A stretch of 64,000 nucleotides of DNA from Anadara kagoshimensis (Eukaryota > Mollusca > Bivalvia > Arcoida > Arcidae): positions 8,608,635 to 8,672,634 of the forward strand of contig CM037864.1 of the NCBI GenBank assembly GCA_021292105.1, given 5' to 3'. A program made the translations under genes and the position numbers. Of this stretch, positions 33,846 to 54,529 are shown piece after piece (positions within the stretch are counted from its first letter, which is position 1; every line of letters begins with the position of its first letter). The notes under the pieces were generated by a model. The model ran no database searches and was not told the DNA's origin. It saw only the letters and a program-made list of their open reading frames with translations.

Positions 33846-34474
33846 CCCGGGTAATACCGGTAGTTATTAAAATACAAAACACATTGCAGTATCATCTTTG
33901 ATTTGATATATTTCTTTAATAATGAAGTTTCATTTTATAGTTGATATTTTGAATAATCATCGATATTCTAAGTTTCTGGTCTTGCGTACGTTTGACCATC
34001 ATCCTTACTCGTCAAGGAAATATCATGGATCTTTCACACATTAAGTATTGTTGAGTAGCTACATATTTAGTATTGTTGAGCTACTCTTTGGAACAAGAGT
34101 GTTTTTCCATTAATTTTGAATAACCTTCACTAATGAGAATATCAATAATCTGCAAAAATTAAAGTTTAAACAATATATTTTAATGATATATTGAATTGCT
34201 TAATTACCAATCAAATCCAAATCTGTTTAACTATTTACACCTTCCACATGTTGAGAATGGAAGGAACATGGAACGTCAAATATATCCAGGGTAATTTTTG
34301 GACGACATAAAGACAGCATACTTATCAACAACATTGTGATGACGACCATGAAACTTTAAGGGTCTTGATCGATAACCCTGTAACCCTGGGCTTGCATAAT
34401 CCTGCCTAATTGATGTCAGAGTTTAAGTCAAGTAAAAGCTATTTCAACTCCCTTAAGACATGGACTTGTGAATT

Positions 34475-34526
34475 ATAACTATTTTTCTTCTTCTTTTTTT
34501 TTTTTTTTAGAAATATCCCTATCGGA
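34475..34526 (+). promoter_or_regulatory. 3' splice site and leader of TRIM-like gene A
   Basis: A TTCTTCTTC and poly-T tract ends in TAG at about 34510, followed by 16 bp of leader to the ATG. The tract is conserved ahead of all four gene copies, so a non-coding 5' exon lies further upstream. Its position is not resolved. Confidence 0.65.
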
Positions 34527-36200
34527 ATGGCGACGCCAGAAGTTCCTGATGCCCAGTGGCCAGTAATCCTTGACCAGAAATGTGAGCTTTGTGAAATTAA
34601 CAACATATCTTATAAGTGTCTCAATTGTGATGAGATGACATGTGATTTTTGTACAAAAGCACACTTGAAAAGCAAAGCAACTAAAGACCATAAAGTAGTT
34701 TGCTTAAAATCAGCTGAGATATATGAAAATATTCAAATTGGGAAAAAATGCCCTACCCATACTAAGGAGGATTTGCTTATGTTTTGTAATACCTGTAATT
34801 GTCCAGTCTGCAGAGAGTGTGTTACCAGTAGTGTCCATCTTCATCACCCCATGGTTAAAGTGGAAGAGGTTATAGATATCAAACAAAAACAACTATCAAA
34901 TATCATCAGACAGACAAACGAAAAGTCCAAAAAATATGAAGATGTAATCAAAACCATTGTCTACAATAAATTAGAATTCTCCGAGTTCATAACCAAAAAA
35001 ATCAAGGAGGTGAAGGCTAGAAATAACCAGCTTAAAAGCAGACTAGACAAAATGGAATCTGACATCATCCAACAGTTACAAAATATAGACAAGGAGAATA
35101 AGAAAGCTATGACTGAGTTGGAAGAAAGGTTACAAGGAGAAATGGCCGATATAAATCAACTGATACATCAATGTGAGCGGAAAGAGAGAGACAGGAATAT
35201 AGAGATGGTAAAGTTTGTGACAGATGTTACACAAAGATTAGATAAATACAGACCATGTGATCCACCAGACCCAGTAAGTCCACCAGACCTGATAACCAGG
35301 CCTGTGGATGATCAAGAACTTAAAGATATGTTTGGCCAACTTGATTTGAAGACTAAACCAGCAGCCAATGCACCATTAACGCAAGGCAATCAAATCCCAT
35401 CACACAGTCCTGTTGTAGATGCTAAGATAGTTTCCAGTTTTACTCGTAATACGACTCATGTAGCAACAACAGATAATGATAAGGCTTGGTTATGGAACTG
35501 GAGTGATAGAAGTATATCACTGGTGACATCAGATGGTAAAGTTATACAGAACATCAGGACTGACTTTTGTATATATGATGCTGCTGTCTCTAAATCTGGA
35601 GATCTTCTTGTGACAGTGCATGATGGTAATAAAGTAAAGAAGTTAACAGGAAATAACACATTTATAGACGTATATACAGCAGCAGATGACTATACGACAC
35701 TAGGAATTACTGTAACAGGTACAGGTAATGTACTTGTTGGGTTGTGGGATTACAATGACAGAAAGATAGTGGAGATAACAACCAGTAGACAACACATCAG
35801 GACAATACAACATGACACATTAGATAACAAACAATTGTTTGACAACCCCTGGTTTATCTGTACTAACATAAATGGTGACATTATAGTTAGAGATAATGGT
35901 AAAGTAGTAGTTGTTAACCAACAGGGACAGAAAAGATTTATATATCAGGGTGAGGGGAGAAAACTGAAGGAACCATTTGCTCCAGAGTATACAGTCACAG
36001 ATAAACATGGACATATAATAATCAGTGACAGTGACAACTCTGTAGTACATGTCTTAGATAAAGATGGGAAGTTTCTACAGTATCTGATAACACCTGAACA
36101 GGGGTGTAACGAGCCAAGGGGAATGGACATAGATAGTTCTGGTAGATTGTGGGTGTGTAATGCTGGAAATAACAAAATCTTCATAATGAAATATGTGTAA
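34527..36200 (+). CDS. TRIM-like B-box/coiled-coil/beta-propeller protein, copy A
   Basis: The product is 557 aa in one exon. B-box 1 has zinc-binding positions C19, C22, C31, C34, C39, C42, H46 and H55; B-box 2 has C75, H78, C87, C90, C95, C98 and the HLHH histidines at 104-107. A coiled coil follows at roughly 119-240, then a proline-rich linker (DPPDPVSPPD), then an NHL-like propeller at about 290-557 with repeated V-x-D-x-x-G strands such as DSSGRLWVCN. There is no RING finger, so ubiquitin-ligase activity cannot be assumed; proteins of this layout are numerous in bivalves and some respond to immune challenge. It is one of four tandem copies. Compared with copy C the first 290 residues are nearly the same and the propeller is strongly diverged. 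The start follows the conserved splice acceptor. The 3' end is repeated downstream as tandem cassettes. Confidence 0.93.
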   Translation: MATPEVPDAQWPVILDQKCELCEINNISYKCLNCDEMTCDFCTKAHLKSKATKDHKVVCLKSAEIYENIQIGKKCPTHTKEDLLMFCNTCNCPVCRECVTSSVHLHHPMVKVEEVIDIKQKQLSNIIRQTNEKSKKYEDVIKTIVYNKLEFSEFITKKIKEVKARNNQLKSRLDKMESDIIQQLQNIDKENKKAMTELEERLQGEMADINQLIHQCERKERDRNIEMVKFVTDVTQRLDKYRPCDPPDPVSPPDLITRPVDDQELKDMFGQLDLKTKPAANAPLTQGNQIPSHSPVVDAKIVSSFTRNTTHVATTDNDKAWLWNWSDRSISLVTSDGKVIQNIRTDFCIYDAAVSKSGDLLVTVHDGNKVKKLTGNNTFIDVYTAADDYTTLGITVTGTGNVLVGLWDYNDRKIVEITTSRQHIRTIQHDTLDNKQLFDNPWFICTNINGDIIVRDNGKVVVVNQQGQKRFIYQGEGRKLKEPFAPEYTVTDKHGHIIISDSDNSVVHVLDKDGKFLQYLITPEQGCNEPRGMDIDSSGRLWVCNAGNNKIFIMKYV

Positions 36201-37112
36201 CAGAAACAGGGACAAAGTTATAACAACATTCTCAGATCAATTAGGTAATGACATTGTTTATCTGTAACAGGCCACTGGGAATGGACTTGGATAGTTCTGT
36301 CATATACCATTTTTTGAATTTAATCATAAAATACATTCAAAAAATGATATGTGACAATATTGTCACATACCATTTTTTGAATGTATTTTATGATTAAATT
36401 AAAAAAATGGTATAAGACAGTTCTGGTAGGTTGTGGCTGTGTAATACTGGCAATTTCAAAATTCTTATAATTAAATATGTGTAACAGAAACAGGGACAAA
36501 GTTATAACAACATTCTGTGACCTTTTAGATATTAACATTGATTACTTCTGACAGGCCAGTGGGACTGGACTTGGATAGTTCTGGTAGATTGTGGGTATGT
36601 AATGCTGGACATGACAAAATCCTCATAGTGAAATATGTGTAACAGAAACAGGGACAAAGTTATAACAACATTCTGTGATCATTTAGGTATTGACATTGTT
36701 TATATGTGACAGGCCAGTGGGATTGGACTTGGATAGTTCTGGTAGATTATAGGTGTGTAATTCTGGAAATAACAAAAACCTTATAGTGAAATACAATGTA
36801 TGTGTAACAGAAACAGGGACACAGTTGAAATAACACACTGTGATCAATTAGATAATGCCATTGTTAATCTGTGACGGGCCAGTGGGACTGGGCTTGGATA
36901 GTTCTGGTAGATTGTGGCTGTGTAATACTGGAAATAACAAAATCCTCATAGTGAAATATGTGTAACAGAAACAGGGACAAAGTTATAACTACATTCTATG
37001 ATCATTTAGGTTATGAGATTGTTTATCTGTGACAGGCCAGTGCGATTGGACTTGGATAGTTCTGGTAGATTATAAGTGTGTAATGCTGGAAAAAACGAAA
37101 ATGAAAAACAGG
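36201..37112 (+). repeat. Tandem 3'-end cassettes of gene A (five)
   Basis: The last coding strand of the gene plus its 3' UTR recurs every 155-165 bp: cassette 1 at 36270-36490 (split by a foldback element), 2 at 36553-36642, 3 near 36710, 4 near 36875 and 5 near 37034, cut off at about 37110. Cassette 2 is a clean 29-codon open frame ending in stop and reads like the gene's own C-terminus with GLDLDSSGRLWVC. Cassette 4 is also open; 3 and 5 have a stop (RL-stop). Each is preceded by CTGACAG or CTGTGACAG, which resembles a splice acceptor. Confidence 0.85.
36300..36418. mobile_element. Foldback MITE inside cassette 1, unit A
   Basis: Two arms of about 55 bp (TCATATACCATTTTTTGAAT outward to ATGTGACAAT, and its reverse complement) meet in a near-perfect palindrome. 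AGTTCTG lies at both borders (36293-36299 and 36419-36425), a 7-bp target duplication inside the cassette's coding strand. The same insertion is at 44621-44739, 53783-53900 and 61965-62083. Confidence 0.9.
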
Positions 37113-37138
37113 AAAAGAACAAATGCAGCGGCCAAACC

Positions 37139-37139
<1 letters not shown>

Positions 37140-37185
<46 letters not shown>
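37140..37185. repeat. GA microsatellite closing the cassette row
   Basis: A pure GA run follows GGCCAAACCGT at the end of the last truncated cassette. Counterparts are at 45788-45832, 54463-54530 and 63135-63179. Confidence 0.9.
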
Positions 37186-37186
<1 letters not shown>

Positions 37187-37497
37187 CTGTCTAAAAGCTA
37201 TTATAATATAGGTAGCGATAGGTCAAGGCGCGTTGAACATTGATTGGGCACACATTCGTTAGCTTATTGTAAAACGTTCGACATGCCTGTACTGTATATG
37301 ATGTGCGATTTTGGTTTACAATGTTTATGTCAGTGTGGATTGAATGAGGTAAAAGGAACAATTGATTGACACTTCACAAACCAAAAAATTTATTTTTCAC
37401 AGTACAGACCTGTCGAAAGGTTAACACTAAGCTGATGAAAAGGAGTAGACCGCCTAGTAGCCGAGATAAGGATAGTGACCGAAACAGCTGCTGAGAG

Positions 37498-37840
37498 AGT
37501 TGAGTGATGGTGTTTAACGTCCCAGTCCAGAATATTTCACTTAAATATCGAAACGTCGCCAGCTGTAAACGAAGGCGCAGAATTTTTTCCTGTGCGTTGC
37601 GCTGATGGCATTATACATCAGGGTTCTTTAGCGTGTCAAGCCTACTATAACACGGAGCCTCATTTATTTTAAGTTTCCATCCGAAATATCCGCGACTTTC
37701 ATTTCGTAATGCCGAGTGCTTGCCAAAAGAAAAATCACTTAACACGTTCAAGTATTGGGTCTGACCCGGTCGGGGTTCGAACCCATTACCTCTCACTTAC
37801 GGAGCGAGCACTCTACCAACTGAACTACCACAGTGGTTAA
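37498..37840 (-). mobile_element. tRNA-headed SINE, full-length, unit A
   Basis: This is the reverse complement of the 16757 family with head and boxes intact (plus-strand GGGGTTCGAACCC and CTACCAACTGAACTACC). It is shared by all four units at the same place, so it inserted before the units duplicated. Confidence 0.88.
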
Positions 37841-37999
37841 CTACCGAGAGATAGTTATCAGCTGTCGTATAGCTACCTAGACATAGCCAGCGCAATAAGC
37901 TGCTTATTCGGCATCAATTCGGCAGCTTAGTGTTAAACTTTAGACAGGACTGTACTGTACTTTATATCCATGTAATGATGTATAAATATTTCAAGTGTT

Positions 38000-38032
38000 T
38001 TTGTGTAAATATGTAATAAATAAAAAAACCTT
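38000..38032 (+). terminator. Candidate poly(A) signal region for gene A
   Basis: ATATGTAATAAATAAAAAAA holds two overlapping AATAAA hexamers, the first strong poly(A) signals after the cassettes. If used, the 3' UTR would be about 1.8 kb and include the cassettes and the SINE. Conserved counterparts lie near 46655 and 55365. Confidence 0.4.
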
Positions 38033-39125
38033 GCTTGCAAATATGTTTGTTTACTAGCTCATATATGATTGTAAATAAATTTTATCCAGACAATAAAAAG
38101 ATTTCAAATTCCTCAAATTCTGACAACTTCTTTGAAGATTTTTACAACTATACACGTCCATTATTATAGTACATCTTCAATAACTAGAACTTCATCATTT
38201 TCAATATACATTGGTACCAAAAATCTAAATTATTATTTTGTCTCATCAGTTTTTATTTTGAAATTTAAAAGTCCCAAACACTTCAAGTTATTGAAGCATT
38301 ACTGTGCAACAGATAAGTTTTTCTGTTGATTCATGAATTTTTTGTTGTTGTTGTTTGAATACTTAAGAGATGGAAATGTATCAGGAAATTGCTAAGACAA
38401 GGCCAAATGATTGATTAAATAGCATTTTACTTTCCAGTCTAGAATATTTTACTGATATCGAGACGTCGCCCACCAGCTATAGGTGACGTAACGAAAACAT
38501 TTTTTTTTACCTTTGCCCAGGGAAATGTGAAAGAAGGGTCCTCATCATGCCAAGTCTGAAGTGACACGGGATAGGTTTTTAAGGTCTCTTCCAACAGAAC
38601 AAGTGACTTAGCAATTATACACCACAGTAATATGGACACTGGTCACCAGGACGAAGTAGAAGTAGAGTGTGGAGTTGTGTAATCGAGTTTTATACCCTCG
38701 GTTAAGATACTGTTTCGAGGCTGTTAGTTAAGGGATGGTGACATAAACTTAAATACTAATCTCACAAAAATCAGTTAACCTTTTTAAACTAAATTTGGAT
38801 GTCACGAGATTGCCGTTTGGTTGGTGTTATACATTGAAGTAAGTTATTGTCGTCAACAAAATAACCCACGTCATCTCCCATGTACTGTTGGTGTTGAAAG
38901 ATTCGATATTACAGACTACTGACTCGAAAAATGGACCAAACTTGTCATGCGGGATTTTATCAGAACTGTCCGACCTGTGGAAATTGACTTGAATCTTAAT
39001 TTAATTTCATATTTTTTCTCAAGTCTAATTTTATAGGCGGGCTGGTCTGATAAACTACAAATAATTTGGCATGGCCTTATTAGAAAGATTATAAAATGTG
39101 GGTATTTAGTGACAACTTGAACAAT
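38033..39125. other. Unit A spacer, no gene recognised
   Basis: AT-rich sequence is conserved with 46680-47770 and 55380-56470. Short frames are not preserved between copies. Confidence 0.6.
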
Positions 39126-39134
39126 AAGATGCGT

Positions 39135-39365
39135 GGGACATTGCAAGTAGTTCTGTTGGTAGAGCGTCAGCCTCAGGATCGGAACGTCATGAGTTCGAAT
39201 TTTGACGGGGGCATGTTGGTATTTTACTACTAGTAGATTCACTTACACTGTGTTGGAATAATGGGCCAATTGGACTGCAATCTCTGCCACTGTTGTCTCG
39301 GTGAACTAGTACCTAAACGTCGCCCCGTGTGTACGCTAGTACAAAACAGATACAAACATGCATAT
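39135..39365 (+). mobile_element. Third tRNA-headed SINE family, unit A
   Basis: The head GTAGTTCTGTTGGTAGAGCG plus CATGAGTTCGAATTTTGACG reads as A and B boxes with a damaged B box. The body has TGTTGGTATTTTACTAC and CTGTTGTCTCGGTGAACTAG. A better-preserved copy is at 47785 in unit B. Confidence 0.75.
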
Positions 39366-39599
39366 TACACAGTCTGTCATGAGCCCAACGTGATCTGACC
39401 GACCCTTGCACCGCAGTGTGAGAATTAAAATGCCCCACACAATGTTCCGTCTTTCTGTACCGCAGTGTGAGAATTAAAATGTCCCACACAATGTTCCGTC
39501 TTTCTGTTAACGTAATCGATTAAAAGCATCCATGTTTACAAACGTTTACAGATTTTTGTTGACGTCGGAAGCCTTATTCGTGAACAGCGTAGCCGGTTT

Positions 39600-40560
39600 A
39601 TTGATTGAAATTTCTAGTCAAGATATGCCACTTATATCGAGACGTCACCTTTTGAAGGTGAAGTGGCAGAAATTTTGACCTTTGCAGTGTCATAAGGACA
39701 ATATGCAGAGAGGGTTCTTTCACGTGCCACGCCAGTTGTGACACGGGACAACGGGTTTTAAGGAATTTTTCGAAGTACCCCATGGATATCATTCTAAATG
39801 TCGAGTATTTGGCGAAAGAACAGTCACTGTCTATTTTTAAAGTCTTGGCCAGACCACGGGCTGGGAGTATTCTATAACGTGCCTAGCCGTTTGTGACATC
39901 GGTTTTAAGGTATTTTCCGAATTACTAGTACCCCATGGATATCATTCTAAATTTCAAGTATTTGGCGAAAGAACAGTCACTGTTTATTTTTAAAGTCTTG
40001 GTCAGACCCCGGGCTGGAAGTGTTCCATAACGTGCCTAGCCGTTTGTGACATGGGACGTCGGTTTTAAGGTATTTTCCGAATTACTAGTACCCCATGGAT
40101 ATCATTCTTAATTTCAAGTATTTGGCGAAAGAACAGTCACTGTCTATTTTTAAAGTCTTGGTCAGACCCTGGGCTGGAAGTGTTCCATAACGTGCCTAGC
40201 CGTTTGTGACATGGGACGTCGGTTTTAAGGTATTTTCCGAATTACTAGTACCCCATGGATATCATTCCTAATTTCAAGTATTTGGCGAAAGAACAGTCAC
40301 TGTCTATTTTTAAAGTCTTGGTCAGGCCCCGGGCGTGGAGTGTTCTAAAACGTGCCTAGCCGTTTGTGACATGGGACATAGGTTTTAAGGTCTTTTCCGA
40401 ATTACCCTATGAATATCCTTCTAAATGTGGAGTATTTGGCAAAAGAACAGTAACTGGCTATTTTTAAAGTCTTGGTCAGACCCCGGGCTGTGACACGGGA
40501 CAACGGGGTTTTAAGGTCTTTTCCGAAGTACCCCATGATTTTCATTCTAAATGAGAACAG
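39600..40560 (-). repeat. 160-bp tandem amplification of a SINE segment, unit A
   Basis: A SINE-like body in reverse orientation has its internal segment (GTGACATGGGACGTCGG through TAAAGTCTTGGTCAGACC) repeated four to five times at 153-160 bp. Unit B has only a single copy in the same place (48170-48370), so the amplification happened in the A lineage; unit C has the same array at 56943-57895. Confidence 0.85.
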
Positions 40561-40970
40561 GCACTACCTTGTTTACTGTGCGTCAAGTTTGACCTAGCAG
40601 TTTGACCTTAAATTTAAATATAAGGATGGGCTAACAGACTGTGTGTTTCATGTAAAACAGTCATGATTCTTTACCATAAAAACCAGGACCCAGTTGTTCG
40701 AATCTTGTCTAGCTTGATTAGTTTAATCGGTGATTAGCTGAAAATTAAAATATGAATAAAATCAAAATATCACTATCGCATTTCTATTTTTATTTCAATA
40801 TGCTTAAGTTTGATGGAATTTTATACATTTTCAACATTTCAACTTTAAGTTCACAATATATCTGAAATTATGCAAAATTTAAAATTAGACTAATTAAGCT
40901 TCAAACAACTAGCCCATGGTACCCAGTATCACTACCATCTATCCTCATATATAAACTTTAAATGGATATC

Positions 40971-41235
40971 CACGACCAGGTCTGACCCAAGACTTAAAGG
41001 TCTTTCGCCGAGCATTCAGCATTACGAAATGAATGTTACAATTCGTTCAGATGGGAACTAAGTAAAATAAACGAGGTCCTGTGTCACCGTAGGCTTGGAA
41101 CGATAAAGAAACCTGCTGTATAATGTTATCAGCGCAAAGCACATGCAACATTTCTGCACCTTCGCCTATAGCTGGCGCCGTCTCGATATAAGTGAAATAT
41201 TTTTAACTGGGACGTTAGACACCATTACTAAACTC
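40971..41235 (+). mobile_element. SINE (16757 family), head missing, unit A
   Basis: The copy starts at CCAGGTCTGACCCAAGACTT and continues to the GACGTTAGACACCATTAC tail. The tRNA head is absent. The counterpart in unit C is at 58314. Confidence 0.85.
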
Positions 41236-41439
41236 TACTTAAAATGGATTGTTTGTTTGAATATTCAAATTAAAGATCAAACGACATTGTCAAAATTGAC
41301 GCACTATACAGAATAGCAATGCTTTAAGAATACATCAGAACTTATTGGTAAATGGGAGATAATTCAAGTAGCAAACATCGGATTAGTGTCTGCCCATTGG
41401 ATGGGTTAGTTTGCGTTTGAAAATGCTTAAAATATTTTT

Positions 41440-41745
41440 TCATGGTCAGGTATGATTACAGATAGGCTTGTCCTTGATATTGCTTAAAATGGGAATTTTT
41501 AACTGTCTTAATTGTTTTTGGTGTTATTGTTTCAGATATGGATAGTTGGGTTTTGCACGCCCTTGACATTGCGTAAAATATTGAAATTTGGACTGCCTTA
41601 ATTTTCTCTGGTGGTATTGTGTCAGATGTGGAAAGTTGGGTTGGCTTGTCCTTGATATTGCGTACAAAATATAAAAAATTGAACTGTCTTGATCTTCTCT
41701 TTGGTGGTATTGTTTCAGATATGGAAAGTTGGGTTGGCTTGTGGT
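41440..41745 (+). repeat. 90-bp minisatellite, unit A, about 4 copies
   Basis: TTCAGATATGGATAGTTGGG recurs at 41531, about 41621 and about 41713, with CTTAATTTTCTCTGGTGG between. Unit B carries a much larger block of the same repeat. Confidence 0.85.
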
Positions 41746-41792
41746 TGAACTTGCTCTATATAACCTTAACTACCCTTTATTTTTTCACTAAC

Positions 41793-42113
41793 GGATAAGA
41801 CATCAGTCTACAAATCCAGGGTCTATCACCGCTGTGAGTTCGAGCTCGTCTCAGATCACATGTGGGAAAGTGAAGTTTTCTTGCCGTTGGCCTTTACTGG
41901 TTCATCTAATATAAGTCTTGTCTGCTGCGTGATGACTCTGTTAGCTAGCTCCGAGTGCGTGGTAGTACAAGGTAGACAATACAGCACACACGCACTCCAC
42001 ATGCATACACGAACTTGTTCATAGATTAATTCATAGAGATTAATAAAAATAGTTCTTGTCGCGAATAGTTGAAAAATTGCTGATGCGACGTTAAGCAACA
42101 TTCAACCAACCTT
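41793..42113 (+). mobile_element. tRNA-Arg-like SINE, 5'-truncated, unit A
   Basis: It has the body and tail of the 16216 family from AACGGATAAGACATCAG to CATTCAACCAACC. The first part of the head is lost. Confidence 0.85.
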
Positions 42114-42141
42114 CATTGTTTCAGTAAGATATACAGCTGTA

Positions 42142-42222
42142 GTGTACTGTAGTGGTATGTAAGTCACATTGCCATCATGTGACAATTTGCACCGGTTACT
42201 ATTGACTACCCTTTATCTATCA
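42142..42222 (+). repeat. Single 92-bp satellite monomer at unit A/B junction
   Basis: GTGTACTGTAGTGGTATGTA through CCCTTTATCTATCAG is a satellite monomer standing alone at the border of two TRIM units, more than 8 kb from the main array. Confidence 0.9.
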
Positions 42223-42580
42223 GCCAGGTAGATTGTACTATATATATATACATTAATAATTTACCTTCTTGTTTCATATTACCTGTCCTTTGGTCTGTTC
42301 AGGTTTATACTTGTTATTTAAAATGCACCATCTTGATATGCAACAAATTTACAACAATCAACAGAAAGAAAAGTTTGGAACTTATTAAGGCTGAACGAAA
42401 ATCCAGAAAAAAATTGTTACAGATATAACAAAGACTTAAAGAGACTGTTGATAAATCAAAGAATACGCCTCACAGGTAGGAATATAACTTAAAATACATA
42501 ATTAATGTACAGACCATGATGTTCGCAGATATTCGTCTCACAGGAAGGAATTGGTAAAATACAAACTAATGTATATCAGG

Positions 42581-42630
<50 letters not shown>

Positions 42631-43346
42631 GGGTTATAGTTATTAAAATACAAAATTAAAGTTCAGGTGTTGATAAAAAACAAACATACTAACACATTGC
42701 AGTATCATCTTTGATTTTATAGATTTCGTCAATAATGAAGTTTCATTTTATAGTTGATACTTTGAATAATGATCGATATTCTAAGTTTCTGGTCTTGCGT
42801 ACGGTTGACCATCATCCTTACTCGTCAAGGAAATATATTATCTCTCGCACATTAAATTACATATTTAGTATTGTTAAGTATTATCATGACCACAAGTACT
42901 TGGGGACAATAGTGATTTTTCTATTAATTTTGAATAACCTTCACTAATGAGAATATCAATAATTTGCAAAATTAAAAAAGTTTAAACAATGTGTTTTACT
43001 GATATATTGAATTGCTTAATTACCAATCAAAGTCCAAATCTGTTTAACTATTTACACCTTCCACATGTATAAACAAAATTGAGAATGGAAGGAACATGGA
43101 ACGTCAAAATATATCCAGGGTAATTTTGGACGACACAGAGACAGCATACTTATCAACAACATTGTGATGACGACCATAAAACTTTAAGGGTCTTGATCGA
43201 TAACCCTGTAACCCTGGGCTTGCATAATCCTGCCTAATTGATGTCAGAGTTTAAGTCAAGTAAAAGCTATTTCAACTCCCTTAAGACATGGTCTTGTGAA
43301 TTATAACTATTCTTCTTTTTTTTTTTTTTAGAAATATCTCTATGGA

Positions 43347-44520
43347 ATGGCGGCGTCAGAAGTTCCTGATGCCCAGTGGCCAGTAATCCTTGACCAGAAA
43401 TGTGAGCTTTGTGAAATTTACAACATATCTTATAAGTGTCTTAATTGTGATGAGATGACATGTGATTTTTGTACAAAAGCACACTTGAAAAGCAAAGCAA
43501 CTAAAGACCATAAAATAGTTTGCTTAAAATCAGCTGAGATATATGAAAATATTCATATTGGGAAAAAGTGTCCTACCCATACTAAGGAGGATTTGCTTAT
43601 GTTTTGTAATACCTGCAACTGTCCAGTCTGCAGAGAGAGTGTTACCAGTGGTGTCCATCTTCATCACCCCATGGTTAAAGTGGAAGAGGTTATGGATATT
43701 AAACAAAAACAACTATCAAATATCATCAGACAGACAAACGAAAAGTCCAAAAAATATGAAGATGTAATCAAAACCATTGTCTACAATAAATTAGAATTCT
43801 CCAAGTTCATAGCCAAAAAAATCAAAGAGGTGAAGGCTAGAAATAACCAGCTTAAAAGCAGACTAGAAAAAATGGACTGACTTTTGTGTATATGATGCTG
43901 CTGTCTCTAAATCTGGAGATCTTCTTATGACAGTGTCTCTTGGTAATAAAGTAAAGAAGTTAACAGGAAAAAACACATTTACAAACGTATATTTAGCAGC
44001 AGGTGGCTATTAGGCACAAGGTATAACTATAACAGATACAGGGAATGTACTTGTTGTGTTGTGTAAGGACAATGACAGTAAGATAGTGGAGATAACAACC
44101 AGTGGACGACACATCAGAACAATACAACATGACACAGTGGATAACAAACAACTGTTTGACTACCCCTGGTTTATTTGTACTAACATAAATGGTGACATTA
44201 TAGTTATAGATGATCGTAATGTAGTTGTTGTGAACCAACAAAGACAGAAAAGATTTATATATCAGGGTGAGGGGAGAAAACTGAAGGAACCATTTGATCC
44301 ACGGTATGTAGTCACAGATAAACATGGACATATAATAATCAATGAGTGACAACTCTGTAGTACATGTCTTAGATAAAGATGGGAAGTTTCTACAGTATCT
44401 GATAACACCTGATCAGGGATGTAGTTGGCCGGTGGGAATGGACATAGATAGTTCTGGTAGATTGTGGGTGTGTAATAGGGGAAATGGAAATAATAAAATC
44501 CTCATAATGAAATATGTGTA
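43347..44520 (+). pseudogene. TRIM-like gene copy B, disrupted
   Basis: It is open for 177 codons (to 43880), covering both B-boxes and the start of the coiled coil. Relative to copy A a 503-bp deletion (A positions 35057-35559) then removes the rest of the coiled coil, the linker and the first propeller blades and shifts the frame to an immediate stop. Further lesions are a TAG in the propeller (near 44011) and a 2-bp loss at 44344 that ends the remaining frame. B-box 2 has Ser in place of zinc ligand C98. A one-base loss in the leader creates an out-of-frame ATG at 43342, five bases before the normal start. The residual 177-aa product could still be made, but a full protein cannot. Confidence 0.92.
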
Positions 44521-44620
44521 ACAGAAACAGGGACAAAGTTATAACAACATTCTCTGATCACTTAGGTAATTACACTGTTTATCTGTAACAAGCCACTGGA
44601 AATGGACTTGGATAGTTCTG

Positions 44621-44739
44621 TCATATACCATGTTTTGAATTTAATCATAAAATACATTCAAAAAATGATATGTCACAACATTGTCACATCCCATTTTTTG
44701 AATGTATTTCATGATTAAATTTTAAAAATGGTATAAGAC
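44621..44739. mobile_element. Foldback MITE, unit B
   Basis: This is the same palindromic insertion as at 36300, at the same cassette position and with the same AGTTCTG duplication. Confidence 0.88.
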
Positions 44740-45281
44740 AGTTCTGGTAGGTTGTGGCTGTGTAATACTGGAAATGACACAATTCTTATGACGAATTATG
44801 TGTAACAGAAACGGGGACAAAGTTATAACAACATTCTGTGACCTTTTAGATATTGACATTGTTTTTTTCTGACAGGCCAGTGGGACTGGACTTGGATAGT
44901 TTTGGTAGATTGTGGGTTTATAATACTGGAAATGATAAACTCTTCATAGTGAAATATGTGTAACAGAAACAGGGACAAAGTTATACCAACATTCTGTGAT
45001 CATTTAGATATTGACATTGTTTTTTTCTGACAGGCCAGTGCGATTGGACTTGGATAGTTGTGGTAGATTGTGGGTGTGTAATACTGGAAATGACAAAATT
45101 CTTGTAACTAAATATGTGTAACAGAAACAAGGACCAAGTCATAACAACATTCTGTGATCATTTGGGTAATTACATTGTTTATCTGTGACAGGCCAGTGAG
45201 ATTGGACTTGAATAGTTCTGATAGATTGTGGATGTGTAATACTAGGATTAACAAAATCCTAATAATGAAATATGTTTAACA

Positions 45282-45632
45282 TAGTGAGTGAATGTGTAAT
45301 GGTGTTTAACGTCCCAGTCAAGACTCTTTCACTTATATCGAGACGTCGCCAGCTATAGGCGAAGGTGCAGTAATTTTTCCTGCGCGTTGCGCTGATGGCA
45401 TTATACAGCAGGGTTCTTTAGTGTGCCACTGAGCCCACCGTGACACGGAACCTTGATTATTTTAAGTTCCCATCTGGAAGAACTCTGACTTTTTTTCGTA
45501 ATGCCGAGTGCTTGGCGAAAGAACAGTCACTACCCACTTTCAAGTCTTGGGTCAGACCCGGCCGGGGTTCGAACCCACGACCTTCCACTTACGGAGCGAG
45601 CATTCTACCAACTGAGCTACTGCAGTTGCCTT
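45282..45632 (-). mobile_element. tRNA-headed SINE inside the last cassette, unit B
   Basis: Full-length reverse copy with GGGGTTCGAACCC and CTACCAACTGAGCTACTGCA. It is flanked by TATGTTTAACA (45271-45281) and TATGTGTAACA (45633-45643), a target duplication with one change. It is absent from units A and C, so it marks the B/D lineage. Confidence 0.9.
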
Positions 45633-45785
45633 TATGTGTAACAGAAACAGGGATAAAGTTAAAACAACATTCTGCGATCACTTAAGTGACATTATTTATC
45701 TTTGACAGTCCGGTGCGATAGTTCTGGTAGATTGTGGCTGTATAATGCTCGAAAAACAGGAAAGGGCAAATGCAGCGGCCAAACC

Positions 45786-45833
<48 letters not shown>

Positions 45834-46138
45834 CTGTCTAAAAGCTATTATAATATCAGTAGCGATAGGTCAAGGCGCGTTGAACATTGATTCGACACAT
45901 ATTCGTTAGCTTATTGTAAAACGTTCGACATGCCTGTACTGTATATGATGGTTTACAATGTTTGTCAGTTTGGATTGAATGAGGTAAAAGGAACAATTGA
46001 TTGACACTTCACAAACCAAAAAAAGTTATTTTTCACAGTACAGACCTGTCGAAAGGTTAACACTAAGCTAATGAAAAGGAGTAGACCGCCTAGTAGCCGA
46101 GATAAGGATAACTAGCGACCGAAAAAGCTACCGAGAGA

Positions 46139-46479
46139 GTTGAGTGATGATGTTTAACGTCCCAGTCAAGAATATTTCATTTAAATATCGAAACGTCGCC
46201 AGCTGTAAACGAAGGCGCAGAATTTTTTTCTGTGCGTTGCCCTGATGGCATTATACATCAGGGTTGTTTAGCGTGCCAAGCCTACTGTAACACGGGACCT
46301 TATTTATTTTAAGTTTCCATTCGAAAGAACCGCGACTTTCATTTCGTAATGCCGAGTGCTTGCCGAAAGAACAATCACTACCCACTTTTAAGTTTTGGTC
46401 AGACCCGGTCGGGGTTCGAACCCATTACCTCTCACTTACGGAGTGAGCACTCTACCAACTAGACTACCACAGTGGTAAA
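46139..46479 (-). mobile_element. tRNA-headed SINE, unit B
   Basis: This is the counterpart of 37498. The 11-bp target duplication CTACCGAGAGA is intact at 46128-46138 and 46480-46490. Confidence 0.9.
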
Positions 46480-46490
46480 CTACCGAGAGA

Positions 46491-47780
46491 TAGTTAGCAG
46501 CTGTTGTATAGCTACCTAGATATAGCCAGCGCAATAAGCTGCTCATTCGGCATCAATTCGGCAGCTTAGTGTTAAACTTTAGACAGGACTGTACTGTACT
46601 TTATATCCATGTAATGGATGTATAAATATTTCAAGTGTTTTGTGTAAATATGTAATAAATAAAAAATCTTTCTTGCAAATATTTTTGTTTACTAGCTCAT
46701 ATATAGTTGTAAACAAGTTTTGTCCAGACAATAAACAAATTTTATTCCTCAAATTCTGACAACTTCTTTGAAGATTTTTACAATTATACACCTCCATTAT
46801 TATAGTACATCTTCAATAACTAGAACTTCATCATTTTCAATTTACATTGGTTCGAAAAATCTAAATTATCATTTTGTCTCATTAGTTTTAATTTTCAAAT
46901 TTAAAAGCCTCATACACTTCAAGTTATTGAAGCATCACTGTGCAACAGATAAGTTTTTCTGTTGATTCATGAATTTCTTTGTTGTTGTTGTTCGGATACT
47001 TAAGATATGGAAATGTTTCAGGAAATTGCCGAGATAAAACCTTATGATTGATTAAATTGCATTTTACTTTCCAGTCTAGAATGTTTTACTGATATCGAGA
47101 CGTCACCCACCAGCTATAGGTGACGTAACGAAATTTATTTTTTACCTTTGCCCAGGGGAGGGGGTCTTCAATATGCCAAGTCTGAAGTGACACGGGGCAT
47201 ATGTTTTAAAGGTCTCTTTTAACGGACTCTGAGACAAAAACAAGTCAGCAATTATAAAACGACAGTGATGTGAACACTGGTCACCAGGACGAAGTAGAAG
47301 TAAAGAGGGTAGTTGTGTCATAGAGTTTTATACCCCCGGTTAAGATACTTTCACTTGTATCGAAGCTGTAAGTTAAGGGATGGTTGACATAATTTAATAC
47401 TAATCTCACAAAAACCAGTTAACCTTTTTAAACTAAATTTGGATGTCACGATTGTCGTTTGGTTGGTGTTATACATTCAAGTAGATTAATGTCATTTGCA
47501 TTCTATTGTTATAAAAACAACCAAAATAATCCACGTAATCCCCATGAGCTGTTGGTGTTGAAAAATTTGATATTACAGACTCGAAAAATGGACCAAATGT
47601 GTCATGAAGGATTTAAACCGGAATTTTCGGACCTGTGGAAATCGACTTGAATCTTAATTTACACAGTGTCTTATTTTACAGGTGGACGGGTCTGATTAAC
47701 TACAAATAATTTAACATGGCCTTACTGGGAAAAAAGATAATTAAATGTTGGTATCTAGTGACCACTTGACCAAAAGATGC
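46491..47780. other. Unit B spacer, no gene recognised
   Basis: Homologous to 37850-39130 with about the divergence expected between A and B units. Short frames are not conserved. Confidence 0.6.
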
Positions 47781-47784
47781 CCAA

Positions 47785-48000
47785 GATATGTATGTAGCTC
47801 TATTGGTAGAGCATCAGACTCAAGATCCGAGCGTCGTGAGTTTGAATCCCGACTGGGGCATGTTGGTATGTTACTAAATTCCACTTGCACTGTGTCGGAA
47901 TAATGCAACCTCTGCAACTGTTGTCTCGATGAGCTAGTACCTAAAAGTCGCCCCGGTGTGTACGCTATTACAAAACAGATATACACATAATACACAGTCT
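47785..48000 (+). mobile_element. Third tRNA-headed SINE family, unit B
   Basis: GTAGCTCTATTGGTAGAGCA gives a clean A box and GTGAGTTTGAATCCCGAC a near-consensus B box. A real tRNA is unlikely because the body and tail match the copies at 39135 and 56478. Confidence 0.78.
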
Positions 48001-48699
48001 ATCGTGGTTACATGGAGTATAACATAATTTGACTGACCCTTGCACCGCAGTGAGAGAATTCAAATGTCCCACACAATGTTTCTGTTAACGTAATCGATTA
48101 AAAGATCTTAGTAACCGTTGGAAGCCTTATTCATGAACATCGTTGCTTGTTTGTTAATTGAAATTTCCAGTCAAGATATGTCACTTATATCGAGACGTCA
48201 CAATCTGTAGGTGAAGTGGCATATTGCATTGTGCTTGGAGGGTTCTTTCACGTGCCACGACTGTCTGTTGTGATATGGAACATCGGTTTTTAAGGTCTTT
48301 TCCGAAGTACCCCATGGGTTTCATTCTAAATGTCTTTGGCAAAAGAGAAGTCACTACCTTTGTTTATAGTGCGTCAAGTTTGACCTGGCAGTTTGACCTT
48401 AAATTTGAATATTATGATGGGCTAATACACTGTGTGATTCAGGCAAAGCAGCGCCATCATTAGGTACCATAAACACCTGGTATCCCGTATCGCTACCATC
48501 TAACCTTTTATATCAACTTTAAACGAATATATCTGTTTGAATATTGAAATTAAAGGCCAAACGACCATGTCAAACTTGACGCACTATACACATCCTTTTA
48601 GGGTCACGCATGCAATACTGACATCAAAACTTAATGGTCAAATGGAGACAATTCAAGTAGCAAACATGCACATTGGTTGCGTTTGACAGTGCATAAAAT

Positions 48700-50110
48700 A
48701 TTGACTTATTTTAATGGTAAGGTATGGTTTCAGATATAAAAGTTGGTTTGGCTTGTCCTTGCATAAAATAGATAATTGTTTTTGGTGGTATTGTTTCAGA
48801 TTTGAAAAGTCGGGTTGGTTTGTCCTTGATATTGCGTAAATTATCGAAATTTGGACTGCTTTAATTTTCTCTGGTGGTATTGTTTCAGGTATGGAAAGTT
48901 TGGTTGGTTTGTCCCTGTCTTTGCGTAAAATATGAAAATTTGGAGTGCCTTAATTGTATCATTTGGTGATATTTCAGATATGGCTGGAAAGTTTGGTTGG
49001 CTTGTCTCTGACTTACGGAAATTTGAACTGCCTTAATTGTCCTTGCTATTGCTTAAAATATGGAATTTTGAACTGTCTTAATTATTTTTTGTTGTATTGT
49101 GTCAGGTGAGTTGGGTTGGTTTGTCCTTGTCTTTGCGTAATATACTGAAATTTGAACTGTCGTCATTTTCTTTGGTGGTAATGTTTCAGATAGAAAGTTG
49201 TGTTGGCTTGTGGTGGTGGAAAATGCTATAAATATGGAAAATTGAACTGGCTTAATTTTCTCTGGTGGTATTGTTTCTGATATAAGGTTGGTTGGTTGGT
49301 TGGTTGGTTGAATGTTGCTTAACGTCGCATCAGCAATTTTTCAGCTATTCGCGACGAGAACTATTTAATTAATCTATGAACAATTTTTGTGTATGCATGT
49401 GAAGTGCGAGTGTGTTGTATGGTCTGCCTTGTACTAGCGCGCACTCAGGGCGACTTTACCGTGCTAGCTCACAGAGTCAGTACGCCGCAGACAAGCGTAC
49501 CACTCCCCCAGTCCATTATACTGATACCAGATGAATCAGTAAAGGCCAACGATAAGGAAAATTCACTTTCCCACATGTGGTCCGAGCGGGACTCGAACTC
49601 ACAGCAGTGAGAGACCCTGGATTTGAAGACTGACGTCTTATCCATTAGGCCACCGCGCCCTTTTCTGATATAAGGAAAGTTAGGTCGGCTTGCACTTGAC
49701 TTTGCGTAAAATATGGAAATTTCGACTGCCTTAATTTGTACCAGTTGGTGGTATTTTTAGATATGGCCGGAAAGTTGGATTGGCTCACCCTTGATATTGC
49801 GTAAAATATGGAAATTTGAAGTGTTTTAATTTTCTCTGGTGTTTTAGATAAGGAAAATCGGGTTGACTTGCGGTTGATATTGCTATAAATATTGAAATTT
49901 GAACTGGCTTAATTTTCTCATTGACTTTGCGTACAAAATATGGATTTGAACTGCCTTAATTGTATCAGTTGGTGGTATTGTTTCAGATAAGTAAAGTTGG
50001 CTTGCCTGTCTGATATTGTGTAAAATATAGAAATTTGGACTGTCTTAATGTTATCTTTGGTGGTATTGTTTCAGATATGGATAGTTGGGTTGGCTTATGG
50101 TTGAAATTGC
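48700..50110 (+). repeat. 90-bp minisatellite, unit B, about 12-15 copies
   Basis: The GGTGGTATTGTTTCAGATAT unit seen four times in units A and C is expanded here and more diverged, with a SINE (49288-49661) inserted inside. Confidence 0.85.
49288..49661 (-). mobile_element. Full-length tRNA-Arg-like SINE in the minisatellite
   Basis: The (GGTT)n-tailed reverse copy runs to CCATTAGGCCACCGCGCCC at its head. TTTCTGATATAAGG at 49274-49287 and 49662-49675 is a perfect 14-bp target duplication. It is found only in unit B. Confidence 0.92.
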
Positions 50111-50146
50111 TATATATAACCTTAACTACCCTTTATTTTTCACTAA

Positions 50147-50457
50147 CGGATAAGTCTACAAATCCAGGGTCTATCACCGCTGTGAGTTCGAGCCCGTCTC
50201 AGATCACATGTGGGAAAGTGAAGTTTCCTTGCCGTTGGCTTTTACTGGTTTACATAATACAAGTCTTGTCTGCTGCGTGCTGACTCTGTTAGCTAGCTCT
50301 GGGTGCGTGCTAGTACAAGGTAGACCATGCAAAACACTCGCACTTCACATGCATACACGAACTTGTTCATAAATTAGCCCAATAGAGATTAATAAAAAGT
50401 TCTCGTCGTGAATAGCTGAGGAATTGCTGATGCGACGTTAAGCAACATTCAAACAAC
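50147..50457 (+). mobile_element. tRNA-Arg-like SINE, 5'-truncated, unit B
   Basis: Counterpart of 41793 with several substitutions and a short deletion near its start. Confidence 0.85.
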
Positions 50458-50486
50458 CTTTATTGTTTCAGTAAGATATACAACTG

Positions 50487-50662
50487 TAGTATAGTGTAGT
50501 GGTATGTAAGTCACATTGCAATCATATGACAATCTGCACCAGTTACTACTGACTACTCTTTATCTATCCAGTTATATATAGTGTACTGTAGTGGTATGCA
50601 AGTCACATTGTCATCATGTGACAATCTGCACTAGTTACTACTGACTACCCTTTATCTATCCA
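50487..50662 (+). repeat. Two satellite monomers at unit B/C junction
   Basis: Two consecutive diverged monomers precede CAGACAGGTAGATTGTAC, the start of unit C. A TA microsatellite of about 50 bp follows (50678-50730). Confidence 0.9.
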
Positions 50663-50674
50663 GACAGGTAGATT

Positions 50675-50730
<56 letters not shown>

Positions 50731-51119
50731 TATAATTTACTTCCTTGTTTCATATTACCTGTCCTTTGGTCTGTTCAGGTTTATACTTGTTATTTGAAAT
50801 GCGCCATCTTGAAATGCAACAAGTTTACAACAATTAACAGAAAGAAAAGTTAGGAGTGACTTACTAGTATTAAGAGTTTACAAGGATCCAGAAAAATGGT
50901 TACAGATTTAACAGAGACCTAAACAGACTGCTGATAACTTACAGAAAACGCCTCACAGGTAGGAATAAAAGTTAAAATACATAATGAATGTACATGTATA
51001 TATCACTTAATAGACCACGTCATAGAGAGAGAGAGAGGGGGGGGATTTTTCGCAGATATTTATTTATATCAATATCTTATTATTGCTCAGATCACATCAG
51101 AAAGAGAGCAACTGGAGAT

Positions 51120-51154
<35 letters not shown>

Positions 51155-51206
51155 TCACAGATACATCTCCAGGCAGGTATGATTTAAATACTGTATATTA
51201 GATCAT

Positions 51207-51249
<43 letters not shown>

Positions 51250-52009
51250 AATAGTTATTAAAATAAAAAAGTATTAGACACGTGAAATTCTAACAGGCTA
51301 GTCAGGCCGGGTGGTCCGAAAGGGTATTTAATTATCCACTTAATGATCACAGAATTTCACAGATTACTTTGCAGTATCATCTTTGATTTTATATTCGTCA
51401 ATAATGAAGTTTCATTTTATTTGATACTTTGAATAATGATCGATATTTTAAGTTTCTGGTCTTGCGTACGGTTGACCATCATCCTTACTCGTCAAGGAAA
51501 TATCATGGATCTTTCACACATTAAGTATTGTTGAGTAGCTACATATTTAGTATTGTTGAGCTACTCTTTGGAACAAGAGTGAATTTTTCATTAATTTTGA
51601 ATAACTTTCACTAATGAGAATATCAATAATCTGCAAAAAATAAAAAAAAGTTTAAACAATATGTTTTACTGATATATTGAATTGCTTAATTACCAATCAA
51701 AGTCCAAATCTGTTTAACTATTTACACCTTCCACATGTATAAACAAAATTGAGAATGGAAGGAACATGGAACGTCAAAATATATCCAGGGTAATTTTTGG
51801 ACGACACAGAGACAGCATACTTATCAACAACATTCTGATGACGACCATAAAACTTTAAGGGTCTTGATCGATAACCCTGGGCTTGCATAATCCTGCCTAA
51901 TTGATGTCAGAGTTTAAGTCAAGTAAAAGCTATTTCAACTCCCTTAAGACATGGTCTTGTGAATTATAACTATTTTTCTTCTTCTTTTTTTAGAAATATC
52001 CCTATCGGA
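50663..52009 (+). promoter_or_regulatory. Upstream region of TRIM-like gene C
   Basis: The first 700 bp differ clearly from unit A, with a long TA run, a GGGGGGG run and the 51278 repeat segment. From about 51400 the region follows A closely (AGTATTGTTGAGTAGCTACA twice in tandem). The acceptor tract TTTTTCTTCTTCTTTTTTTAG ends at about 51993 and the leader continues to the ATG at 52010. No promoter motif is convincing. Confidence 0.5.
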
Positions 52010-53683
52010 ATGGCGGCGTCAGAAGTTCCTGATGCCCAGTGGCCAGTAATCCTTGACCAGAAATGTGAGCTTTGTGAAATTAACAACATATCTTATAAGT
52101 GTCTCAATTGTGATGAGATGACATGTGATTTTTGTACAAAAGCACACTTGAAAAGCAAAGCAACTAAAGACCATAAAGTAGTTTGCTTAAAATCAGCTGA
52201 GATATATGAAAATATTCAAATTGGGAAAAAATGCCCTACCCATACTAAGGAGGATTTGCTTATGTTTTGTAATACCTGTAATTGTCCAGTCTGCAGAGAG
52301 TGTGTTACCAGTGGTGTCCATCTTCATCACCCCATGGTTAAAGTGGAAGAGGTTATAGATATCAAACAAAAACAACTATCAAATATCATCAGACAGACAA
52401 ACGAAAAGTCCAAAAAATATGAAGATGTAATCAAAACCATTGTCTACAATAAATTAGAATTCTCCGAGTTTATAACCAAAAAAATCAAGGAGGTGAAGGC
52501 TAGAAATAACCAGCTTAAAAGCAGACTAGACAAAATGGAATCTGACATCATCCAACAGTTACAAAATATAGACAAGGAGAATAAGAAAGCTATGACTGAG
52601 TTGGAAGAAAGGTTACAAGGAGAAATGGCCGATATTAATCAACTGATACAACAGTGTGAGCGGAAAGAGAGAGACAGGAATATAGAGATGGTAAAGTTTA
52701 TGACAGATGTAACACAAAGATTAGATAAATACAGACCATGTGATCCACCAGACCCAGTAAGTCCACCAGACCTGATAACCAGGCCTGTGGATGATCAAGA
52801 ACTTAAAGATATGTTTGGCCAACTTGATTTGAAGACCAAACCAGCAGCCAATGCACCATTAACGCAAGGCAATCAAATCCCATCACACAGTTCTGTTGTA
52901 GATGCTAAGATAGTTTCCAGTTTTACTCGTAATACGACTCGTGTAGTAACAACAGATAATGACCAGGCTTGGTTATGGAACTGGAGTGGTAGAGATATAT
53001 CACTGGTGACATCAGATGGTAAAGTTATACAGAACATCAATACTGACTTTGATGCGTATGACGCTGCTGTCACGAAATGTGGGGATCTCCTTGTGACAGT
53101 GTTCGGTGGTAGCGAAGTAAAGAAGTTAACAAGAAATAACACATTTACAGACGTATATATAGCAGCAGGCGGCTATGGGGCACGAGGTATCACTGTAACA
53201 GATACAGGGAATGTACTTGTTGTGTTGTATAAGTACAATTACAGAAAGATAGTGGAGATAACAACCAGTGGACAACACATCAGGACAATACAGCATTACA
53301 CAGTGGATAACAAACAATTGTTTGACAGCCCCTTGTTTATCTGTACTAACATAAATGGTGACATTATAGTTATAGATGATGGTAAAGTAGTAGTTGTTAA
53401 CCAACAGGGACAGAAGAGATTTATATATCAGGGTGAGGGAGGAAAACTGAAGGAACCATTTGCTCCAAAGTATACAGTCACAGATAAACATGGACATATA
53501 ATAATCAGTGACTATTACAACTCTGTAGTACATGTCTTAGATAGAGATGGGAAGTTTCTACAGTATCTGATAACACCTGAACAGGGGTGTAACGAGCCAA
53601 GGGGAATGGACATAGATAGTTCTGGTAGATTGTGGGTGTGTAATACTGGAAATAACAAAACCTTCATAATGAAATATGTGTAA
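52010..53683 (+). CDS. TRIM-like B-box/coiled-coil/beta-propeller protein, copy C
   Basis: The product is 557 aa, collinear with copy A and without gaps. The frame stays open 17 codons further upstream (to 51959), but that stretch is the poly-T acceptor of the preceding intron, so the ATG at 52010 (MAASEVPDAQ), equivalent to A's start, is preferred. Both B-boxes keep all zinc ligands, including C98. The coiled coil and linker are as in A. About 42 of 265 propeller residues differ from A, clustered in loops: VFGGSEV for VHDGNKV, LYKYNYR for LWDYNDR, SDYYNSV for SDSDNSV. Only about 5 of the first 290 differ. The gene is therefore an older paralogue of A, although the sequence after its stop codon is nearly identical to A's. 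Confidence 0.93.
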   Translation: MAASEVPDAQWPVILDQKCELCEINNISYKCLNCDEMTCDFCTKAHLKSKATKDHKVVCLKSAEIYENIQIGKKCPTHTKEDLLMFCNTCNCPVCRECVTSGVHLHHPMVKVEEVIDIKQKQLSNIIRQTNEKSKKYEDVIKTIVYNKLEFSEFITKKIKEVKARNNQLKSRLDKMESDIIQQLQNIDKENKKAMTELEERLQGEMADINQLIQQCERKERDRNIEMVKFMTDVTQRLDKYRPCDPPDPVSPPDLITRPVDDQELKDMFGQLDLKTKPAANAPLTQGNQIPSHSSVVDAKIVSSFTRNTTRVVTTDNDQAWLWNWSGRDISLVTSDGKVIQNINTDFDAYDAAVTKCGDLLVTVFGGSEVKKLTRNNTFTDVYIAAGGYGARGITVTDTGNVLVVLYKYNYRKIVEITTSGQHIRTIQHYTVDNKQLFDSPLFICTNINGDIIVIDDGKVVVVNQQGQKRFIYQGEGGKLKEPFAPKYTVTDKHGHIIISDYYNSVVHVLDRDGKFLQYLITPEQGCNEPRGMDIDSSGRLWVCNTGNNKTFIMKYV

Positions 53684-54460: not shown

Positions 54461-54464
54461 CCGT

Positions 54465-54529
<65 letters not shown>

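Follow-up and report, generated by a model that had tools for sequence, protein, structure and literature searches.

In a stretch of 64,000 nucleotides on chromosome 8 (C8) of the ark clam Anadara kagoshimensis (contig CM037864.1, C8:8608635-8672634; called the window below), two intact coding sequences (CDS), copies A and C, encode proteins with two B-boxes, a coiled coil, and a C-terminal NHL propeller. From sequence comparisons, we consider it probable that the family to which they belong is a germline recognition repertoire, TRIM-like but RING-less, in which loci exchange the propeller and one of its faces is diversified. The comparisons support the view that selection diversifies loops on one propeller face, most clearly the b-c loops, in recent genes, and that purifying selection acts on the B-box/coiled-coil half, which evolves locally. 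We infer an immune role for the family. Positions refer to the window unless marked C8, and the features on which the argument rests are as follows.

34527..36200, forward strand: copy A, intact CDS of 557 amino acids (B-box1, B-box2, coiled coil, linker, six-bladed NHL propeller)
52010..53683, forward strand: copy C, intact CDS of 557 amino acids
34581..34859, forward strand: two zinc-binding B-box domains of copy A, residues 19-57 and 73-111 (Pfam and alignment columns)
34860..35240, forward strand: predicted coiled-coil helix of copy A, residues 112-238 (DSSP on an AlphaFold2 (AF2) model, and sequence match to PDB entries)
35415..36197, forward strand: propeller module of copy A, residues 297-557, exchanged between clusters and diversified
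52898..53680, forward strand: propeller module of copy C, placed by gap-free alignment with copy A

Both copies are single open frames. The open reading frame (ORF) listed for copy C starts at a GTG at 51959, and the conserved ATG is at 52010.

The genome searched comprised 1.115 Gb in 36 contigs. At least 85 stretches matched copy A at E 1e-20 or better (78 of 1312 candidates were scored, and some stretches are pieces of one gene); 38 of the 85 were on C8, 37 of these at 3.4-9.4 Mb. Open CDS of 540 codons or more numbered 31, of which 22 were aligned for pairwise and tree analyses. The nine left out were L044-L050, L053, and L057, eight as distant and L044 (C8:4224000-4226300) for a repeated insert of approximately 63 residues in the linker from the coiled coil to the propeller. 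Certain copies in the genome could be haplotype duplicates.

Exchange of the propeller emerged from a comparison of two C8 clusters at least 1.7 Mb apart, one at 8.6-9.4 Mb (6 genes) and one at 6.9 Mb (3 genes). Between clusters, silent divergence (dS) was 0.39 in the front half and 0.10 in the propeller, and within-cluster propeller values were 0.109 and 0.090. A silent Fst-like statistic on these nine genes was 0.84 for the front half, with no other of 84 relabelings as large, and -0.07 for the propeller, for which 62 of the 84 relabelings were as large. Without two genes of an inverted arm (a possible assembly duplicate), the values were 0.87 and -0.04. Copy A illustrates the pattern: its propeller dS was 0.076 to L019, located 1.7 Mb away, and 0.100 to copy C, whereas its front-half dS was 0.37 to L019 and 0.031 to copy C. 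The linker ahead of the propeller contained the best silent change point between the clusters, which lay after codon 290. In five cross-cluster pairs profiled along their length, the 5' flanks were unalignable in all five and the 3' flanks in three, being partly alignable in L009-L024 and L024-L026; 100-bp bins of the propeller differed by 1-20% (median 7%).

Tree comparisons pointed in the same direction. The front alignment rejected the propeller tree (difference in log-likelihood, dlnL, 478), and the propeller rejected the front tree (approximately unbiased (AU) test, p = 0.0016). Each third of the propeller also rejected the trees of the other thirds by AU, in alignments short enough to favor their own tree. 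The Shimodaira-Hasegawa test was non-significant in two comparisons, the propeller with the tree of its first third (0.09) and the first third with the front tree (0.07). Shared runs were significant after Bonferroni correction in 7 of 54 cross-cluster pairs, with six located in the propeller. Judged from these alignments, loci exchange the propeller, starting at about codon 290, through gene conversion or another form of recombination, and for this reason it is the less silently diverged part between clusters. Silent-site constraint in the propeller was rejected as the cause of the low cross-cluster dS because constraint would leave the differentiation of clusters in place. An earlier reading of the window, made from the sequence alone (the sequence-only reading), had described a tandem, recombining gene family. 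With more family members included, this description was supported.

Selection on individual sites was assessed in 13 C8 genes with a grid model similar to FUBAR (fast unconstrained Bayesian approximation), written in custom code and run on block-specific trees. These genes, which include the nine above, were picked after pairwise dS, and L029-L035, L038, and L039 were left out. The 0.9 cut-off was exceeded by 47 of 261 propeller sites (46 when a single tree was used) and by none of the 290 sites in the front half. A model forbidding replacement rates above silent rates (beta > alpha) was worse by 2dlnL = 57.0. In 100 null simulations on the same fixed trees, 2dlnL was at most 9.5 and at most 8 sites exceeded 0.9 (mean 0.34), against 40 observed on that grid.

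The flagged sites clustered on one face. Faces were assigned from the DSSP strands of the AF2 model and propeller topology, not from solvent exposure; d-a and b-c loops were defined as top, a-b and c-d loops as bottom, and strand ends were assigned to their side. Flagged sites comprised 27 of 88 top, 3 of 77 bottom, and 17 of 93 strand-interior positions (top vs bottom, p = 4e-6). All six blades had at least one flagged site in the b-c stretch and in the stretch from d-a to the start of a (strand edges included), and the residue sets at the 27 flagged top sites differed among all 13 genes. Tree-free counting gave a replacement-to-silent ratio (pN/pS) of 2.66 for b-c loops (bootstrap interval 1.53-5.54), 0.98 for strands, and 0.44 (0.25-0.83) for the bottom face; the last value indicates that the propeller fold is constrained. 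The b-c ratio was 2.84 when L044 was added and 2.63 when L030 was added.

Paralogues of the related clam Tegillarca granosa, analyzed as proteins, gave a comparison from another species. We used 16 of the 19 listed, leaving out P0005, P0007, and P0012 as fused or duplicated gene models. In these proteins, the top face exceeded the bottom face in entropy (p = 2e-5), and entropy correlated with the replacement rate in the 13 ark clam genes (rho 0.49). Propeller sites picked from T. granosa alone had a pN/pS of 1.83 (1.21-3.22) in the 13 genes, while the other sites had 0.71. The suggestion that the front half is conserved in general failed here, with front and propeller entropies about equal (0.98 vs 0.91). 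Among the matches listed, the best T. granosa relative of copy A was 66% identical, whereas the neighboring syndetin was 96% identical; syndetin was at most 73% identical to matches outside T. granosa (best 120 of 1122). By this measure, the family is turning over rapidly.

Copies A and C, on which the sequence-only reading was based, aligned without gaps and differed at 77 nucleotides and 47 residues, exactly 5 in residues 1-290 and 42 in residues 291-557, as had been counted by hand. The reported excess of replacement over silent changes in the propeller, roughly four to one, was also reproduced (42 replacement vs 10 silent codons, 4.2 to 1), and the loop motifs quoted for the two copies were present. 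By the Nei-Gojobori method (NG86), dN/dS was 0.007/0.031 (0.23) in the front half and 0.086/0.097 (0.89) in the propeller; with these propeller values, a ratio of 4:1 is near the neutral expectation for a single pair. Replacement sites of the pair nevertheless favored the top face (22 of 88 top-face loop and edge positions, 7 of 77 bottom, 12 of 93 strand-interior; Fisher p = 0.008 for top vs bottom). Along the locus, the two copies differed at 95 of 647 nucleotides (14.7%) beyond approximately -640 and at 18 of 620 (2.9%) in the proximal 5' flank; divergence was 1.1% for the front half, 8.4% for residues 291-557, and 0.7% (7/941) for the 3' flank. The claim that upstream non-coding DNA differs by only a few percent thus holds for the proximal flank and not beyond it. 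That the propeller evolves faster than its flank does not follow, since the flanks and front half of this pair are locally homogenized and the propeller is an island between homogenized stretches. We therefore do not take the 4:1 ratio and conserved flank as proof of fast propeller evolution: the pair fits neutrality, and its flank is locally homogenized. A patch-runs test of mosaicism between A and C using pseudogene B (described below) was borderline (p = 0.05).

Several of our results weigh against diversifying selection on an exchanged propeller. The 13 genes were chosen with pairwise dS in view, and the custom site model gave beta > alpha in the propeller an empirical prior of 0.6 and assumed no recombination inside blocks. 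By counting, b-c loops are the only class above 1, since the whole top face reached just 1.23 (0.86-1.82) and d-a loops 0.94; d-a loops had 11 of 45 sites flagged by the model in spite of that ratio. When all 22 aligned genes were pooled, pN/pS was 1.40 (0.96-2.08) for b-c loops, 0.85 for the top face, and 0.53 for the bottom face, and sites picked from T. granosa fell to 1.07 (0.88-1.36) vs 0.58 elsewhere. Propeller omega was approximately 1 overall and 0.6-0.7 with more distant members, while that of the A/C pair was 0.86-0.89 by NG86 and 1.16 by the Yang-Nielsen method (YN00). Since 17 of the 47 flagged sites lay in strand interiors, clustering on one face is strong, but not exclusive. Regarding exchange, the Fst-like statistic across five groups of the 13 genes was 0.80 in the front half and slightly positive (0.09) in the propeller, and one of the seven significant shared runs was in the front half. 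The drop of the b-c ratio in 22 genes indicates that the excess belongs to genes that are recent and closely related; saturation of diversified sites, or a difference in older lineages, would be expected to have this effect.

Some of these values are also those predicted by relaxed constraint with a mosaic history, in which propellers drift near-neutrally and conversion of the flank and front half mimics speed, without diversifying selection. An A/C omega of approximately 0.9, a propeller omega of approximately 1 overall, the threefold higher silent divergence of the A/C propeller (0.097) than of the front half (0.031), b-c loops not clearly above 1 with 22 genes, and the adjoining pseudogenes B and D are all in its favor. 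However, in the 13 genes, the bootstrap intervals of the b-c loops and of the sites picked from T. granosa lie above 1, the bottom face is at 0.44, and none of the 100 null simulations reached the observed 2dlnL. We consequently regard relaxed constraint as unlikely. The diversifying selection that the sequence-only reading had suggested for a ligand-binding face is supported by the site model and b-c counts in 13 genes and not by the A/C pair alone. Its expectation of dN/dS above 1 once paralogues were included holds for b-c loops in 13 genes and weakens in 22 genes, where the interval includes 1, and its expectation that variable sites would avoid the buried core agrees with the contrast between faces, but not with the flagged strand interiors.

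The domain composition places the family close to TRIM proteins. Two B-boxes were identified (PF00643 and PF22586 in Pfam), and in a 15-sequence alignment, most of their zinc-ligand Cys/His residues were invariant and the rest nearly so. The helix at residues 112-238 of the AF2 model follows the B-boxes and matches TRIM28 and TRIM5 constructs in PDB by sequence, and the six-bladed NHL propeller at the C terminus corresponds to the TRIM-NHL class. However, Pfam, run on four proteins of the window (A, C, the B/D fragment, and syndetin), found no RING finger, and searching the window in six frames with a RING pattern gave no match. In the same Pfam scan, there was no B30.2/SPRY domain of the finTRIM/TRIM5 type, its place being taken by NHL, and neither the NACHT domain nor the WD40 repeats of fungal NWD proteins. 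On present sequence evidence, the family is RING-less and, hence, TRIM-like rather than TRIM proper. Fish TRIM and TRIM5alpha families usually have a RING, and TRIM2, TRIM3, TRIM71, and Brat are few, conserved regulators, most with a RING; in contrast to the latter group, the ark clam family is RING-less and rapidly turning over. Gluconolactonases, designed Pizza proteins, and teneurins appeared as PDB look-alikes and were set aside because they have only the fold in common.

A RING could conceivably be encoded on an upstream exon of unusual form. A splice-acceptor-like site was present 2-17 nt 5' of the ATG in 24 of the 26 loci listed (31 CDS in all), at distances of 0, 1, or 2 modulo 3, with an in-frame stop between the site and ATG in five loci (L024, L026, L032, L035, and L044). 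Retroposition as the cause of homology limited to the CDS is disfavored because this site is retained beside the ATG. In copy A, the AG of the site is at 34509-34510; in copy C, the feature is as follows.

51970..51993, forward strand: polypyrimidine tract and AG, 16 nt 5' of the copy C ATG, a candidate 3' splice site of an intron in the 5' untranslated region (UTR)

Bivalves have no vertebrate-type adaptive immunity and live in dense microbial surroundings. We propose that the B-boxes and coiled coil serve as a constant oligomerizing or signaling scaffold, that the ligands contacted by the variable top face are varied and probably non-self, be they proteins, glycans, or nucleic acids, and that exchange between clusters would spread and recombine useful binding surfaces over the gene set. 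If true, the family would show concretely how a recognition repertoire can be encoded in an invertebrate germline, with a shared, diversified binding domain on a local scaffold. The present analysis names residues and loci that are directly testable. The genes may instead encode diversified endogenous regulators that bind RNA or protein and were shaped by specialization or intragenomic conflict (for example, with transposons), not by microbes; we regard this as fairly unlikely. Many fast-turnover copies are unusual for developmental TRIM-NHL regulators, which counts against this explanation. The face named top in the literature on NHL proteins presumably corresponds to the d-a/b-c face of the present propeller. 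That upper surface binds RNA in LIN41, Brat, and Mei-P26, according to excerpts of two studies (PMC5908797, PMC9070667), in favor of endogenous regulation. Moreover, the Brat contacts F916 and N933, in an excerpt of PMC13245067, are 17 residues apart, as are the start of strand a and the b-c loop here (e.g. 390 and 407), a suggestive agreement in spacing only.

A recognition repertoire based on propellers has a precedent in fungi. In the NWD/HNWD genes of Podospora anserina (het-d, het-e), WD40 propeller sequence moves between loci whose scaffold domains are different (excerpts of PMC1805685 and PMC2873952), and diversifying selection acts on positions of the loop from d to the next a and of the b-c turn, all on the top face (excerpt of PMC1805685). 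The ark clam family shares a propeller recognition domain and inter-locus exchange, the latter seen in the trees, Fst-like statistic, and shared runs. It also shares the selected positions, b-c by the model and counting, d-a by the model only, with a weaker signal in 22 genes. The closest description is a RING-less TRIM-like family evolving in the manner of a fungal propeller repertoire. The systems differ in that Podospora NWD genes, as excerpted, shuffle near-identical WD40 repeat units on a NACHT scaffold and are known allorecognition genes of a fungus, whereas the ark clam genes exchange stretches or the whole domain of a six-bladed NHL propeller on a B-box/coiled-coil scaffold in an animal, with their function inferred. 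The ark clam family is an analogue, not a member, of the fungal NWD family; if our interpretation is true, it independently parallels the non-self recognition of fungi, at the same loops of the propeller.

Among animals, the btr, trim35/hltr, and finTRIM genes of fish and primate TRIM5alpha are likewise expanded TRIM-type genes with positively selected loops in a C-terminal binding domain; recombination was detected in btr, and the fish families diversify B30.2 loops (excerpts of PMC3137616). The binding domain of these genes is B30.2/SPRY, in contrast to NHL here, and the excerpts of PMC3137616 describe no missing silent differentiation of the C-terminal part between clusters of fish TRIM genes. 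In bivalves, a table entry in PMC8382680, which gives counts only, contains an expanded B-box orthogroup tagged interferon-beta production, similar to the ark clam family in being a lineage expansion of B-box genes; the excerpts of that source contain no analysis of propeller exchange or site selection. Among the papers listed by a search confined to the openly licensed PubMed Central literature, none was on an animal TRIM-like family whose NHL propeller is hypervariable or exchanged. We also searched the ark clam genome for B-boxes. All 150 candidates scored of 1500 were above the cut-off, and, thus, other B-box families have probably expanded as well; many matches were in open frames of 500-650 amino acids, in tandem clusters on several chromosomes.

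The remaining features of the window concern the duplication history of the locus.

43347..44518, forward strand: copy B, pseudogene
60689..61865, forward strand: copy D, pseudogene, a recent duplicate of copy B with the same deletion of approximately 493 bp
36574..53897, forward strand: tandemly duplicated unit of 17.3 kb, with the second copy running from 53898 to past the window end
36416..37100, forward strand: array of 158-bp units 3' of copy A, bearing the last ~30 codons (end of blade 6)
44740-45281, 53898-54426, and 62084-62629: similar 158-bp arrays

Copy B keeps the front 177 codons; the deletion removed residues ~180-343, and the propeller remnant contains a stop and a frameshift. 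Positions 36574-46654 and 53898-64000 are 99.2% identical across 10.1 kb, indicating that the 17.3-kb unit was duplicated in tandem recently, and the junction of this duplication falls within a 158-bp array. Furthermore, 9128-17443 and 34161-37100 have an inverted, diverged copy in C8:8815388-8830585, with an identity of 97.8% in the syndetin block (3.7 kb) and 91-95% in several neighboring blocks. Either a segmental duplication with inversion or a head-to-head join of two haplotypes would account for it. L015, L016, and L017, at C8 8.72 Mb (+), 8.77 Mb (-), and 9.39 Mb (+), have equal match scores and one in-frame TAA each; they probably derive from a single broken gene that was duplicated to dispersed sites very recently. 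The near-identical tandem copy, the inverted arm with its second syndetin copy, and the likeness of L015-L017 may also be expected if haplotypes or collapsed repeats were joined during assembly as tandem and inverted copies, which would mimic paralogues and exchange. However, 1.7 Mb or more separates the clusters compared, the 5' flanks of the five profiled pairs cannot be aligned, top-face residue sets differ in 13 of 13 genes, and the result stands without the two inverted-arm genes. Therefore, we consider an assembly artefact to be very improbable.

Arrays of 158-bp units were also present 3' of many loci among L009-L030, the unit consisting of the end of blade 6 and some 3' UTR. Of 41 distinct units, a few of which are ends of stop-bearing gene copies and not array units, 33 were open and 36 had an AG directly 5'. 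A candidate GT donor (GGGTGT), relevant to the idea of alternative last exons, was present in just 7 of the 21 CDS with a matching motif. The array units are possible alternative last exons or conversion donors. We may envision a wider scheme, an animal counterpart of fungal NWD recognition with a chromosome-wide pool of NHL propeller cassettes, a six-fold hypervariable face peculiar to each locus, blade-6-end arrays as conversion donors or alternative last exons, and diversity possibly between individuals or cells; at present, this is conceivable, but doubtful.

Syndetin (VPS50), at 9272-12136, is one unbroken ORF of 954 codons. In a genome search with 4 candidates scored, the only further copy was inverted, 99% identical, and located at C8:8827575-8830436, and no multi-exon copy was found; the intronless syndetin may have replaced the original gene. 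A satellite-like 92-bp array of approximately 100 copies occupies 18131-27573 and 30944-32137, and also 50487-50663, with smaller islands near propeller genes. A 145-bp tandem array of approximately 22 copies lies at 1-3141, and a related stretch is located beside the inverted-arm copy at approximately C8:8818872-8819923.

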